The position numbers and the translations under genes are program-made. Below, in pieces: positions 5,930 through 52,850 of a DNA stretch of 64,000 nt (within the stretch, counting starts at the first letter, position 1; every line of letters begins with the position of its first letter). The notes below the pieces were generated by a model. That model ran no database searches and was not told the DNA's origin. It saw nothing but the letters and a program-made list of their open reading frames with translations. The stretch covers positions 2,795,001 through 2,859,000 of the forward strand of contig NZ_CP039903.1 of NCBI RefSeq assembly GCF_005221385.1. The letters run 5' to 3'. Source of the stretch: Agrobacterium tumefaciens. GTDB lineage: Bacteria > Pseudomonadota > Alphaproteobacteria > Rhizobiales > Rhizobiaceae.

Positions 5930-6054
5930 AATGTCATCCTCCCGCCCGCTATATCCGTCATGACCGATACCTGCAGGCTTTATGGCAATCTTGCTATCGC
6001 AACGTAAACAACGGCGGCGATATTCCTCCCTGCCGCATATTAGAATGCCATACG

Positions 6055-21545: not shown

Positions 21546-21735
21546 GGGGCCCTATCCAGTTCGCACGAGGCGTGTGCGTATTTTCAAACGGTCTTAAACA
21601 TTTCTGGCGGCAAGAAAAGCCCAAAGGGAAAATACGCGGTTCTCCGCAAAGAGGAGGAAACGCGTCATCTGCCTGTAATGTGGTTAAGCTATTGCTCCTT
21701 GCAGAGCAAAAGGTGTGTGAATGCATACCGGAATG

Positions 21736-21835
21736 GAAGACATGATGGTCTTCTGGCTCAACCGTTATCTCCGCCACGGATGTACTGGCGGCGTATAACG
21801 GACATAAAAGGCGGGGGAAACCCCGCTTTTTCTTT
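21736..21835 (+). ncRNA. Candidate sRNA A, three hairpins with CGGAUGUAC loop
   Basis: Three consecutive hairpins fill the 486-base gap between the kinase gene and the AEC carrier. The first is gaagac-atgatg-gtcttc (21736-21753). The second has outer stem ccgtta/taacgg (21762-21767, 21796-21801) and inner stem ccgcca/tggcgg (21771-21776, 21786-21791) around the loop cggatgtac. The third is a terminator, gcgggg/ccccgc (21811-21826), followed by tttttc. A homologous element lies at 50325. The transcript start is unknown, perhaps near 21700. The remaining parts of the gap show no gene. Confidence 0.65.
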
Positions 21836-48793: not shown

Positions 48794-48941
48794 CCAGCCG
48801 AAATTGCTCCTTATTCACGAAACCGCACGCACCCATATGGGAGCTTCAGGCTTCTATGCCCGCGCGATGCTTAATCCAGGATGAAGAGTTTAAATGCGGC
48901 AATTTAAGGCGGGGTTAAGTCCAGGTCGGATCAAATCGCCG

Positions 48942-49400: not shown

Positions 49401-49520
49401 GCGTATTTATTAGGCGGTAAGCGGGCAAGCTTCAAGACGCCAGAAGATAGCTATGCGTTTTATGCAATGCTGCGCTGCGATGAAGTGTCTGTTTTTTGAG
49501 CTGATATCCTGTATGTTTAA

Positions 49521-49638
49521 ACCATCGAAGCGACGCACTCCTCCTCCCAGCGTCGCCCGATTGGACTGACAATACTCCTCCTCCCAATTGTCAGTCAGTT
49601 TCAAGAACCCGGCGCACCTCCTCCCGCGCCGGGTTTTT
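49521..49638 (+). ncRNA. Small RNA of the alpha-r14 type with three anti-Shine-Dalgarno loops
   Basis: Three hairpins with nearly identical loops ctcctccc: stem gcgacgc/gcgtcgc (49530-49536, 49550-49556), stem gactgacaat/attgtcagtc (49564-49573, 49587-49596) and stem cccggcgc/gcgccggg (49608-49615, 49626-49633), the last followed by ttttt. The CU-rich loops can pair with ribosome sites of many mRNAs, as described for alpha-r14 (Smr14C) RNAs of Rhizobiales. The 5' end is approximate. It lies in a 478-base gap before the cold-shock gene, whose leader fills the remainder. Confidence 0.85.
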
Positions 49639-49878
49639 GCTGTTTAAGGCCCTGTTTTCAGCGGCTTCGGTTTGGGCGCGCTTCACAAAGATCACACCGT
49701 TTTTCAAAGAAACTTGACTTTTGGCCCCTGCCAACCTAGGTGTTCGCCCATCGATATTTGTTTGACGACCAGAGCTTCGGCGCCTTTTCGGGTGCACACG
49801 ACGATCTTTCCTTCAAATTCGACCCAAGACCGCACTGCCTGCAGTGCAAATACAATTTGCCAACGGAAGGAAATCGTT

Positions 49879-50088
49879 ATGGCGACTGGTACAGTAAAGT
49901 GGTTCAACGCAACCAAGGGCTACGGCTTCATTCAGCCTGACGACGGTTCGCAGGACGTATTCGTGCACATCTCCGCTGTTGAGCGCGCTGGTCTGACCGC
50001 CCTCAACGACGGTCAGAAGCTCTCCTACGAGCTGATGCAGGATCGCCGCTCGGGCAAGATGTCCGCAGGCGAACTCGTCGTTTCCTGA
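49879..50088 (+). CDS. Cold-shock protein
   Basis: A 69-residue single-strand nucleic acid binding protein. RNP1 is KGYGFIQ (KGFGFI-like) and RNP2 VFVHI, with [15 protein letters not shown] at the start. The ribosome site ggaagg lies 8 bases before the ATG. A candidate promoter TTGACT (49714-49719) would give a leader of about 130 bases, as in cold-inducible csp genes. Terminator at 50131. Confidence 0.95.
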
Positions 50089-50130
50089 TAAGCGCACTGG
50101 CCCCAACGGGGTCATTGACATGAATGAAAA

Positions 50131-50154
50131 GGCCGGATTTTTTCCGGCCTTTTT
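50131..50154 (+). terminator. Terminator after cold-shock gene
   Basis: Stem ggccgga (50131-50137) and tccggcc (50143-50149) followed by ttttt. It lies 42 bases after the csp stop. Confidence 0.85.
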
Positions 50155-50324
50155 CTTTTGGAAGACGGTCCTGAACGGGCCGGTCTTGAAAAGAACGGAT
50201 CGCATACCAATATAGGGTTCAACGGTGTTTCGGATGAAACCTGTCAGGTGGGCATTTTGATAATGCCGCTGTGATCGCGTTAACCAAAGATTAACCAAAA
50301 CAGCTGATCCTGATCGTGAAAGCA

Positions 50325-50436
50325 GCGTCGACATGATCGACGCGCTCTGAAGCATCAGACCGTTGAACGCTTTGACCACGGATGTACTGGCATTGACGAA
50401 AAACGGATGGAAAGGTCGGGCTTGCCCGGCCTTTTT
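50325..50436 (+). ncRNA. Candidate sRNA B, homologue of the element at 21736
   Basis: Hairpin 1 is gcgtcga-catga-tcgacgc (50325-50343). Hairpin 2 has outer stem ccgtt/aacgg (50360-50364, 50402-50406) and inner cca/tgg around the identical loop cggatgtac (50379-50387). Hairpin 3 is a terminator, ggtcgggc/gcccggcc (50414-50431), with ttttt. The stem of hairpin 1 differs from copy A yet pairs perfectly, which favours a conserved RNA. It lies in the 427-base gap after the cold-shock gene and before the M20 dipeptidase gene. No coding frame is credible there. Confidence 0.65.
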
Positions 50437-50515
50437 GTTTTTGAGCGCCAAAACGTAAAATGGCAATAAGCAGAAAAAGGAGGAGTCGGGTAACCGACGC
50501 CTCCTCTTTTTTTGA

Positions 50516-51907
50516 CTACTTTGCCGCCAGCGCGTCGAGAATGCGGACCCAGGAGCGGATGCCCTTGTGGAAGGACTGCAGGTCGTATTTTTCATTGGGC
50601 GAATGAATGCGGTCGTCGGTAAGGCCGAAGCCGACTAGCAGCGAATCCATGCCCAGCATCTTCTGGAAATCACCGACGATCGGGATCGAGCCGCCCATGC
50701 CGATGACGACGGCGGGTTTCGGCCACTCGTCCGAAAGCGCGTTTTTAGCCTTGGTCAGCACCGGTGAATCATAAGAAAGCTGGATAGCCGGCGATGCGCC
50801 ATGCTCATGAAACTCCACCGAGCAATCCGCCGGGATTTTCGAGCGCACATAAGCCCGGAAGCTCTCGCGAATGGCCGCGGGGTTCTGTTCGCCAACGAGA
50901 CGGAAGGACACCTTGGCGGAGGCCTTCGCGGCGATTACGGTCTTGAAACCGTCACCGGTATAGCCGCCGATGATGCCGTTGACTTCCGCCGTCGGCCGCG
51001 CCCAGGTCTGCTCCAGCACGGTGCGGCCTTTTTCGCCCGAGGGAACCGAAAGGCCGACTTCACCGAGGAAGGCTTCCGCTGAGCGCCCCAGCGTTTCCCA
51101 GGAGGCCTTGATGTTGGCAGGGGTTTCCTCCACGCCGTCATAGAAGCCGGAAAGCGTCACCCGGCCGGTTTCGTCATGCAGGCCAGCCAAAATATCGGTC
51201 AGAATGTGGATCGGATTTGCGGCCGCACCGCCGAACAGGCCTGAATGCAGATCCCGGTCAGCAGCGGTGATGACGATCTCTTCCCCGACGAGGCCGCGAA
51301 GGGCGGCGGCAATGGCGGGCGTATCGCGGTCCCACATGCCGGTATCGCAGACCAGCGCATAATCGGCCTTCAGCTCATCCGCATTGGCTTCGAGGAACGG
51401 CTTCAGCGAGGGGGAGCCGGATTCTTCTTCGCCCTCAAAGAGAATGGTGACGCGCACCGGCAGGCCGCCATTGACGGCCTTGTAAGCCCGGCAGGCTTCC
51501 ACGAAAGTCATCAGCTGGCCTTTGTCGTCAGCCGTTCCGCGCCCGGTAATCACTTGACGGCCAGCGCCGATATCCTTGATGGCTGGTTCGAACGGGTCAT
51601 TTTCCCAGAGATTGAGCGGATCGACCGGCTGCACATCATAGTGCCCGTAAAAAAGCACATGTGGTGCGTCTTTGGTGGCTGCATCATGATGCGCCACCAC
51701 CATGGGATGACCGGCCGTATCGCGAACGGAAGCCTCAAAGCCCAGTGAGGAGAGCGTTCTGACCAGCCATTCCGCCGCCTTGCGGCATTCCGCCTTATAA
51801 GCGGGGTCCGTGGAAATCGACGGAATGCGCACCAGTTCGAACAGCCGCTCGAGGCTGGATGTAAGATTGTCGTCGGCGGTGGAAAGAATGGGGGAAACGT
51901 CTGTCAT
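50516..51907 (-). CDS. M20/M28-type dipeptidase
   Basis: A 463-residue metallopeptidase of the M20 carboxypeptidase/carnosinase-like group. Zinc ligands are visible in LFYGHYDVQPVD (His, Asp), RGTADDKGQL (bridging Asp), FEGEEESGSPSL (catalytic Glu pair) and a final His in DRIHSPNEKYDL. The insert GIIGGYTGDGFKTVIAAKASAKVSF is the dimerisation domain. ATG at 51907 with agga upstream was chosen over longer frames. Substrate specificity is unknown. It ends 80 bases after sRNA B. Confidence 0.9.
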   Translation of the reverse strand: MTDVSPILSTADDNLTSSLERLFELVRIPSISTDPAYKAECRKAAEWLVRTLSSLGFEASVRDTAGHPMVVAHHDAATKDAPHVLFYGHYDVQPVDPLNLWENDPFEPAIKDIGAGRQVITGRGTADDKGQLMTFVEACRAYKAVNGGLPVRVTILFEGEEESGSPSLKPFLEANADELKADYALVCDTGMWDRDTPAIAAALRGLVGEEIVITAADRDLHSGLFGGAAANPIHILTDILAGLHDETGRVTLSGFYDGVEETPANIKASWETLGRSAEAFLGEVGLSVPSGEKGRTVLEQTWARPTAEVNGIIGGYTGDGFKTVIAAKASAKVSFRLVGEQNPAAIRESFRAYVRSKIPADCSVEFHEHGASPAIQLSYDSPVLTKAKNALSDEWPKPAVVIGMGGSIPIVGDFQKMLGMDSLLVGFGLTDDRIHSPNEKYDLQSFHKGIRSWVRILDALAAK

Positions 51908-52029
51908 CGCTGATCCTGTCATGTCTGTCGTGACCCCGCGATGGACGAGGCATCCGGGCATCGCGCATCGCGTGGGAACAAGGGGCTGACGTGTCGTGAA
52001 TCGCCAAACGTGCAGCCGCCGGAACGATA

Positions 52030-52087
52030 GAGCAGTTCCGGAAAACTGCGAAGCGGTTTTCCATCCGAAATTGCGCATAAACAAAAC
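52030..52087. repeat. Rhizobial intergenic palindrome, copy 5
   Basis: Begins agagcagttccggaaaactg and ends ggttttccatccgaaattgc with an A-rich end. It lies between the dipeptidase and MarR genes. Confidence 0.6.
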
Positions 52088-52148
52088 CCGGAGCCTTCAG
52101 TAATGACAGGCCGCGGAGCAGATAAGCAGCGGTTTCAAGTTGCAGATG

Positions 52149-52583
52149 CTATTTCGCTTTTTTTGCGCTTTCGATCGCTCGGCGCATATATTCCAGCAGA
52201 AGCTGTCTTTCGAAACGGCGGAAATCCTTAAGCAGCGTCTCTTCGGTGGCCTCAGACGCTGCAATGGCATTCGCCTCCAGATCCCTGCCGCGCTGGGTCA
52301 GCTCGATGATCTGGGCCCGGCGGTCGCTGGGATGGGATTTGCGGATGATCAGCCCGTCGCGCTCCATACGTGAGAGCGTGTTGGCAAGCGTTGCCTGCTC
52401 GACGTCGATTCGATCGAGCAATTGCCGCTGCGTCAGGCCTTCCTCATGCCATAGCTCGATGAGGATGGGGAATTGCCCGGGGGAGAAACCCAGGGCAGCG
52501 GCTCTTTTTTGCAGCGCCATGGTGAATTCCCGCGCCATTTTCGTGGCGAGATAAATTGCCGATTCGTCCCGGGAAAATCCCAT
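52149..52583 (-). CDS. MarR-family transcriptional regulator
   Basis: A 144-residue winged-helix dimer. The recognition part is LTQRQLLDRIDVEQATLANTLSRMERDGLIIRKSHPSDRRAQIIELT, which includes the wing DRR. The start at 52583 follows ggacggaag. The upstream palindrome (52636) is a likely autoregulation site. Its neighbours suggest no ligand. Confidence 0.9.
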   Translation of the reverse strand: MGFSRDESAIYLATKMAREFTMALQKRAAALGFSPGQFPILIELWHEEGLTQRQLLDRIDVEQATLANTLSRMERDGLIIRKSHPSDRRAQIIELTQRGRDLEANAIAASEATEETLLKDFRRFERQLLLEYMRRAIESAKKAK

Positions 52584-52635
52584 TCTTCCGTCCGTAGAGC
52601 ATTTCTGCCGGCATATTCCGGCAATTTCGATAGCG

Positions 52636-52655
52636 CGATATATATCGTATGATAT
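52636..52655. promoter_or_regulatory. Candidate operator of the MarR gene
   Basis: Two overlapping inverted repeats: cgatatatatcg (52636-52647, perfect 12-base palindrome) and atatc-gtat-gatat (52642-52655). They lie about 53-72 bases upstream of the marR start codon, near where a promoter is expected. Assignment to this regulator is inference. Confidence 0.4.
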
Positions 52656-52680
52656 GTTTACGCCAGCCCGGAATCCGGAA

Positions 52681-52850
52681 CAAAATAAAACCGCCATGGC
52701 CGGGAGGGATCGGCCATGGCGGTCATATTGGAGGACAAAGGCCCGGAGAGGGGGAAAGGCCTTTGTCCGGTCTGACGCGGCGGGGGACGAGCCAGCTATC
52801 AGACTACGGCGTGATCAGGCGCCGTCCCTTATGAAATGTGTCTCCAAATA
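52681..52850 (-). ncRNA. Small RNA between polA and marR, alpha-r7-like
   Basis: Reading the minus strand, three hairpins follow: acggcg/cgccgt (52820-52825, 52806-52811), ggacaaaggcc/ggcctttgtcc (52758-52768, 52733-52743), and a 12-bp perfect stem, ccgccatggccg/cggccatggcgg (52711-52722, 52691-52702), followed by the U-rich end ttttattttg. Its loops are CU-rich (ccctctcc and atccctcc), so they could bind ribosome sites. In S. meliloti Smr7C (alpha-r7) lies between polA and a marR gene. Family name is inferred from recall of this context. The 5' end is a guess. Confidence 0.65.

Follow-up and report, generated by a model that had tools for sequence, protein, structure and literature searches.

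A stretch of 64,000 nucleotides of the Agrobacterium tumefaciens genome (hereafter the window) contains a short intergenic element predicted to fold into three hairpins, raising the question of whether it belongs to a known family of regulatory RNAs and what such an RNA might do. The element, referred to as copy A, shares the 16-mer CCACGGATGTACTGGC with a second site, copy B (Table 1). A sequence-only reading had described the pair as a two-copy sRNA family, possibly of a known alpha-r type. The count of two holds within the 64-kb window but not genome-wide, where the 16-mer with at most one mismatch was found at exactly four places (5.5 Mb, four contigs), compared with none for the reversed pattern. 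Besides copies A and B, these comprise copy C (C2:1973410), located 20 nt after the stop codon of a cold-shock-domain (csp) gene and hence in its 3'UTR, and copy D (C2:109203), which is the top match of the genome to Rfam family RF02346 (ar35), with 142.6 bits.

Copy A lies between the divergent pfkB gene and a downstream gene encoding an AEC-type transporter. It had been placed after the PfkB kinase gene, a position that we correct here: since pfkB runs on the minus strand, copy A is situated upstream of it. The three-hairpin folds proposed for both copies were reproduced, each performing better than all 200 shuffles (z of -5.7 for copy A and -4.2 for copy B). Hairpin 2 taken alone gave a z of -3.1 in copy A and of -0.5 in copy B, where 47 of 200 shuffles folded equally well or better. 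The terminator of copy A was missed on the plus strand by a simple terminator scan, which listed the minus-strand reading of its stem instead.

Table 1. Features of copies A and B and their surroundings, in window positions
Feature	Position	Strand	Basis
Pho-box-like site of copy A, GCGTCAT-CTGC-CTGTAAT	21662..21679	+	consensus match
-10-like GCTATT of copy A	21688..21693	+	read from locus comparison
Predicted copy A transcript, ~134 nt (both ends predicted)	21701..21834	+	Pho-box distance to start, terminator T-run
Copy A span (three-hairpin element)	21736-21835	+	fold
Copy A hairpin 1, gaagac/gtcttc, clade-specific	21736..21753	+	fold, orthologue comparison
Copy A hairpin 2, CCGTTAT...CCGCCA-CGGATGTAC-TGGCGG...ATAACGG	21762..21801	+	fold, orthologues
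16-base motif, copy A	21774..21789	+	16-mer match
Copy A intrinsic terminator	21806..21831	+	fold
ar14, near cspA	49520-49641		Rfam
C1_109596F thermometer, near cspA	49656-49878		Rfam
cspA, cold-shock domain PF00313, upstream of copy B	49879..50088	+	Pfam
Sigma-70-like TTGAAA-17-AATATA upstream of copy B	50186..50214	+	alignment of 11 orthologues
CtrA-type site TTAA-N7-TTAA of copy B	50280..50294	+	motif match across loci
Copy B sRNA ar35, counterpart of C1_110258F	50318..50438	+	ends transferred by alignment
Copy B hairpin 1, gcgtcga/tcgacgc	50325..50343	+	fold
Copy B hairpin 2	50360..50406	+	fold
16-base motif, copy B	50376..50391	+	16-mer match
Copy B intrinsic terminator	50407..50438	+	fold, terminator scan
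ar7	52685-52816	-	Rfam

The covariance-model comparison with Rfam that the earlier reading had proposed separated the two copies. Copy B scored 48.4 bits against RF02346 (match 50321-50440), above the gathering cutoff of 45, whereas copies A and C, with 26.0 and 36.1 bits, stayed below it; because only copy B of the two window copies reaches 45 bits, it alone is filed in this family, which we take to have been built on smrB35. By itself, the RF02346 score was rejected as proof for copy A, given that it fails to set this copy apart from background: two places of the same genome without the 16-mer scored 27.8 and 26.0 bits. Judged from sequence, copy A is related to the ar35/SmelB053 group but has diverged from it, and it is conserved despite lying below the Rfam cutoff.

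This conservation was assessed with a 161-base query, which recovered copy A from 32 of 39 genus genomes, each search contributing no more than 30 loci. All 30 loci retain, by motif match, the divergent pfkB gene and the transporter gene downstream, although the seven most distant ones matched over little beyond hairpin 2 and the terminator. The loop ACGGATGTACT is invariant in 30/30 loci, with broken loops in none, and since the loop was not a search criterion, this invariance is not a selection effect. The loop and the two adjoining pairs are fixed, and the remaining stem varies while staying paired: among 21 distinct rows, one pair of hairpin 2 appears as C-G in 14, U-G in 4 and U-A in 3, and another as G-C in 16 and A-U in 5. 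Compared with 500 shuffles, the stem cells were paired more often (88.6% vs 78.2%), were changed on both sides more often (23 vs 7.5) and covaried more strongly (score of 0.344 vs 0.190), each value being reached by 0/500 shuffles, although these three measures are inflated by kinship among the rows. A control with slid pairing gave at most 50.2% paired and 10 double-changed cells. There was no excess in the number of pairs with a double change (6 vs 5.0 in shuffles; 179/500) or in further pair types (13 vs 12.5; 264/500). The inner helix was paired in 97.6% of cells and the outer one in 81.0%. Copy A orthologues show compensatory changes, at a score under the cutoff. Hairpin 1 behaves differently: most of its changes are wobbles, L209, L211, L212, L214 and L215 have it in weak or refolded form, and seven loci (L220-L226) leave no space for it, the Pho box described below standing only 33 bases ahead of the loop there.

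Copy B was matched in 39/39 genus genomes, in the distant ones mainly over the shared hairpin and terminator, and the 16-mer is present in all 30 copy B loci read. Its hairpin 1 refolds with altered stem bases in most of these loci (L247 folds otherwise) and with a different loop. The CATGAT loop said to be common to both hairpins 1 is thus a coincidence, given that most copy B orthologues keep the stem and not the loop. That the family might be a known one was confirmed for copy B on two counts, its RF02346 match and a measured A. tumefaciens transcript. Genome G588 has cspA exactly at the published A. tumefaciens coordinates and position 110258 aligns with window position 50318; the corresponding RNA, C1_110258F, was found by RNA-seq (PMC3738593, Table 4), with 123 nt by sequencing and ~180 nt on a Northern blot, and is marked as RACE-validated (PMC3738593). 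TEX lowered its reads 4- to 14-fold (RPKM 5420 to 559, 5444 to 381, 2955 to 220 and 3636 to 983; PMC3738593), which suggests that the 5' end near 50318 is a processed end. Further upstream stands a sigma-70-like TTGAAA-17-AATATA, not reported by a consensus promoter scan and largely kept in 11 aligned orthologues (L248 has TTGTAA and GATATA), from which a start would yield a copy B transcript of ~218 nt. With a processed 50318 end and this upstream promoter, the CtrA-type site of copy B may lie inside a longer transcript. Four regulatory RNAs are clustered around cspA (window 49520-52816).

Beyond the genus, the 16-mer with at most one mismatch was found in 157/199 family genomes, whereas the reversed pattern had one hit or more in 49/199. 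The exact 15-mer occurs in 13/385 class genomes, this one included (reversed pattern, 1/385), and 9 of the 12 other genomes have it behind a csp-type frame. Among the matches listed, one-mismatch variants recur at the first stem C, the first loop C and the U of GUAC, and variants with a single hit elsewhere in the 16-mer may be due to chance. Because the motif itself served to find these loci, they carry no information on loop strictness, for which only the copy A and copy B orthologue searches are informative. In Rhizobiales and relatives, a csp-type frame precedes 87 of 152 sites among the matches listed, at a distance of up to 45 nt in 72 cases; csp calls are motif matches that overlook csp-like tails (e.g., L071, L125), and some of the 65 'free-standing' sites are consequently 3'UTRs. 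The 152 sites are what remains of 158 after subtracting 3 near a contig end and 3 duplicates; the count leaves out seven loci of other groups (L055, L063, L070, L083, L087, L106 and L107) and still includes sites without the outer stem (L183 or L195, L186). From an earlier, smaller set, 12 loci had been omitted by judgement, two of them seemingly real (L033, L103).

Among the matches listed, 146 of 154 sites carry a bulged A under the loop stem; of the two pairs beyond it, the first is formed in 145 of these sites and the second in all 146. The pair next to the bulge is G-C in 141, C-G in 2, U-A in 1, G-U in 1 and unpaired in 1. A bulged A in this position is an architecture typical of protein-bound hairpins; copy A is devoid of it. 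A fixed loop with a bulged A on a variable but paired stem would thus have the look of a bound hairpin, and a strict loop on a compensated stem could serve as bait for a binding factor. Some csp 3'UTRs carry repeated units: two full hairpin copies stand in tandem after one csp gene in L086 (Martelella radicis) and in L192, and L097 (Rhizobium leguminosarum Norway) shows, at about locus base 6038, around five similar hairpin-like units in a row (gctgacc...ggcagc or close), one alone of which keeps the CGGATGTAC loop.

Upstream of copy A lies a Pho-box-like site, comprising two 7-nt CTGTCAT-type repeats separated by 4 nt, which match the consensus at 5/7 and 7/7 positions (M and Y allowed), the first repeat being the weaker; its spacer is not A/T-rich, unlike that of the Pho consensus quoted in PMC3131613. 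The box agrees at 12/14 core positions here and in 28/30 loci (L203, 11; L223, 10), and places like it number 3 among 127,966 window positions on both strands. A consensus promoter scan reported no -10 element or promoter for copy A; a TAT follows the box by 10 bases in 30/30 loci. The box stands 91-96 nt before the loop, but 33 nt in L220-L226, where the -10-like element moves along with it. As Pho boxes lie 22-25 nt ahead of the start (PMC3616915), transcription of copy A would begin at about 21701. The pattern GTCATN4CTGTMAY occurs at seven genomic places, copy A being one of them, and its reversed control at none; the other six neighbour genes for an alkaline phosphatase, a phytase-like protein, an ABC substrate-binding protein, a NUDIX protein, an ABC transporter and an NAD synthase, only the first two being plain phosphate genes. 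Copy A thus has a conserved, putative Pho-box-like promoter, from which we infer that PhoB turns it on in phosphate shortage.

Copy B is preceded by a CtrA-type site agreeing at 8/8 positions in 29/30 loci (L247, 7/8), its spacer having diverged in L250, L254, L255 and L256. The site conforms to the consensus TAA-N7-TTAAC of PMC3616915, where CtrA sites were searched upstream of protein-coding genes. The extended pattern TTAACCN5TTAACC occurs at four genomic places (reversed control, 0): at copy B, before minC and twice on C3. The two C3 places (89139 and 144120) are identical stretches in opposite orientation, with no frame of at least 80 residues starting within 450 nt downstream; minC is a direct, repressed CtrA target in Sinorhizobium meliloti (PMC4433202). 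A second TTAA-N7-TTAA stands at 48904-48918, ahead of a gene that encodes a penicillin-binding protein (Transgly, Transpeptidase) on the minus strand, and the same 15 bases occur at 108857 in genome G588.

Both kinds of site recur in the family. Among the matches listed, TTAA-N7-TTAA was present at 12/65 csp-less sites, every other spacing from 0 to 14 giving 0 or 1, and at 1/87 csp-type sites; in the smaller earlier set, base shuffles averaged 0.10 CtrA sites and stretches 1 kb further upstream had 0/55. Pho repeats with a spacing of 4 and at least 12/14 positions were found, among the matches listed, at 6/65 csp-less sites (other spacings, 0-2) and 0/87 csp-type sites; at a threshold of at least 11/14 there were 13/65, yet another spacing reaches 9. 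By these motif counts, which are not independent because both sets contain orthologues, csp-less copies are enriched for CtrA sites and, more weakly, for Pho boxes. Two csp-less copies, L026 (Shinella sumterensis) and L045 (Rhizobium subbaraonis), combine a 13/14 Pho box with a full CtrA-type site. A literature search that covered few subscription papers returned nothing linking the ar35/SmelB053 group to CtrA or Pho boxes. The sRNA family is already known and copy A is a new relative of it; the promoter wiring is the new, testable part, in which each copy seems to answer to a signal of its own (phosphate shortage in the case of copy A, the cell-cycle regulator CtrA in that of copy B), providing inputs that can be manipulated.

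What the hairpin does admits several readings. In classical base pairing, the exposed CGGAUGUAC would pair with target mRNAs, the csp 3'UTR hairpins being seed sources or sponges, and alpha-r14 sRNAs indeed present conserved loop motifs on hypervariable stems (PMC7143759). We consider this possible but doubtful: the two stem pairs adjoining the loop also never vary among the copy A rows. Moreover, the full complement GTACATCCG occurs 18 times in the genome, as does its reversed form, and four of its 18 places are simply the opposite strands of the copies themselves. Complement words of at least 6 letters are absent from the cspA leader, cspA coding and 3' part, ar14, ar7, SRP and 5S in the window; there are four 6-mers in 1965 bases of 23S and one in the csp region that precedes copy C, with none of at least 7 letters. 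A full-loop antisense regulon was accordingly discarded, there being no complement excess and no word of at least 7 letters in the RNAs checked; shorter seeds would be possible. The CsrA/RsmA consensus ACANGGANGU resembles CCACGGAUGU, with 9/10 letters fitting within a hairpin, but a sponge for CsrA/RsmA has next to no chance of being the explanation: no CsrA was found in this genome, and the protein occurs in only 2/199 family genomes while the motif, as counted above, is held by 157 of the same genomes (reversed, 49), a co-occurrence pattern that rules the sponge out for nearly all carriers.

It is highly improbable that the element is a spreading 3' end, a terminator cassette lacking a function of its own and drifting in copy A. 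The variable hairpin 1, the neighbours that differ from copy to copy and the tandem units in some csp 3'UTRs (L086, L192) would fit such a cassette, but the loop is invariant, the stem is compensated across the genus and the promoter motifs are kept; drift predicts orthologues with broken loops, and these number 0/30. A peptide starting at the loop AUG can be practically dismissed. AUG-UAC-UGG is present in all four genomic copies, but the frames differ in length (4 residues in copy B, 6 in D, 20 in A and 35 in C) and have only MYW in common (MYWH in three), and the 20 bases ahead show no Shine-Dalgarno-like stretch in copies B, C and D; this candidate was rejected because the frames differ among copies. 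The Pho box might serve one of the flanking genes, divergent pfkB or the transporter gene downstream, instead of an sRNA, which we hold to be improbable, since box and -10 shift together toward the hairpin in L220-L226 and the terminator stands between box and transporter.

We give an even chance to the reading in which the free RNAs, each expressed in response to its own cue, act as decoys for a factor recognising the csp-mRNA hairpin, with copy A under PhoB and copy B linked to CtrA. That one hairpin occurs both in free RNAs and in csp 3'UTRs suggests that a shared factor is being titrated. When phosphate is short, PhoB would switch on copy A, whose RNA would display the hairpin found in csp mRNA 3'UTRs and compete there for the loop-recognising factor, for which a nuclease complex or a protein that binds RNA is the likeliest candidate; through this titration the fate of csp mRNAs would change. 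Copy B could act likewise under its CtrA-linked promoter, with either sign. Trans action of ar35-like RNAs is presumed throughout; an Hfq pull-down in S. meliloti did not recover SmrB35 (PMC2848018), so that an Hfq-dependent version is not favoured. Given that translation of ctrA is increased by CspA5 in S. meliloti (PMC5928217), a CtrA-linked decoy of csp mRNAs could, speculatively, feed back to CtrA. The wider version, in which the hairpin is an address label for a new RNA-binding factor on Rhizobiales cold-shock mRNAs, the decoys are wired to PhoB and CtrA, and phosphate and cell cycle set the csp supply with a possible loop to CtrA, is rather unlikely as a whole. If the decoy reading is true, cold-shock chaperone supply would be tied to nutrient state and cell cycle across a large bacterial group associated with plants and animals.

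CsrB/RsmY-type sponges titrate a binding factor through GGA hairpins. Copies A and B would act alike, but have one such hairpin per RNA and a host without CsrA. The GspR-cspA5-ctrA loop of S. meliloti likewise ties together an sRNA, a cold-shock protein and CtrA, although GspR is a different sRNA that base-pairs with the cspA5 5'UTR (PMC5928217). C1_110258F corresponds to copy B in its position behind cspA and in sequence, and is listed in PMC3738593 as an intergenic ncRNA, with neither a family name nor a CtrA site in that listing. SmrB35, in print since 2007, is the same RNA as SmelB053 (PMC7143759, PMC2873474); it is stimulated about fourfold by luteolin and undetectable in nodules (PMC2780559), has been seen under oxidative and salt stress (PMC2573895), and its function was called unclear in 2011 (PMC3927594). 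Its family model, RFMSmelB053, comprises three stem loops, of which the first is variable or absent, the second bears a conserved GGAUGUA loop and the third is a terminator, with 33 related 3'UTRs, 29 of them of cold-shock genes, and transcripts sequestering degradation complexes were proposed for it (PMC3927594, 2011). Copies A and B share with this group the GGAUGUA loop of hairpin 2, the terminator and the variable or missing hairpin 1, and this genome resembles it in holding several copies and a csp 3'UTR relative (copy C). Copy A differs in its 26.0 bits against a cutoff of 45, its stem without the bulged A and its Pho-box-like promoter.
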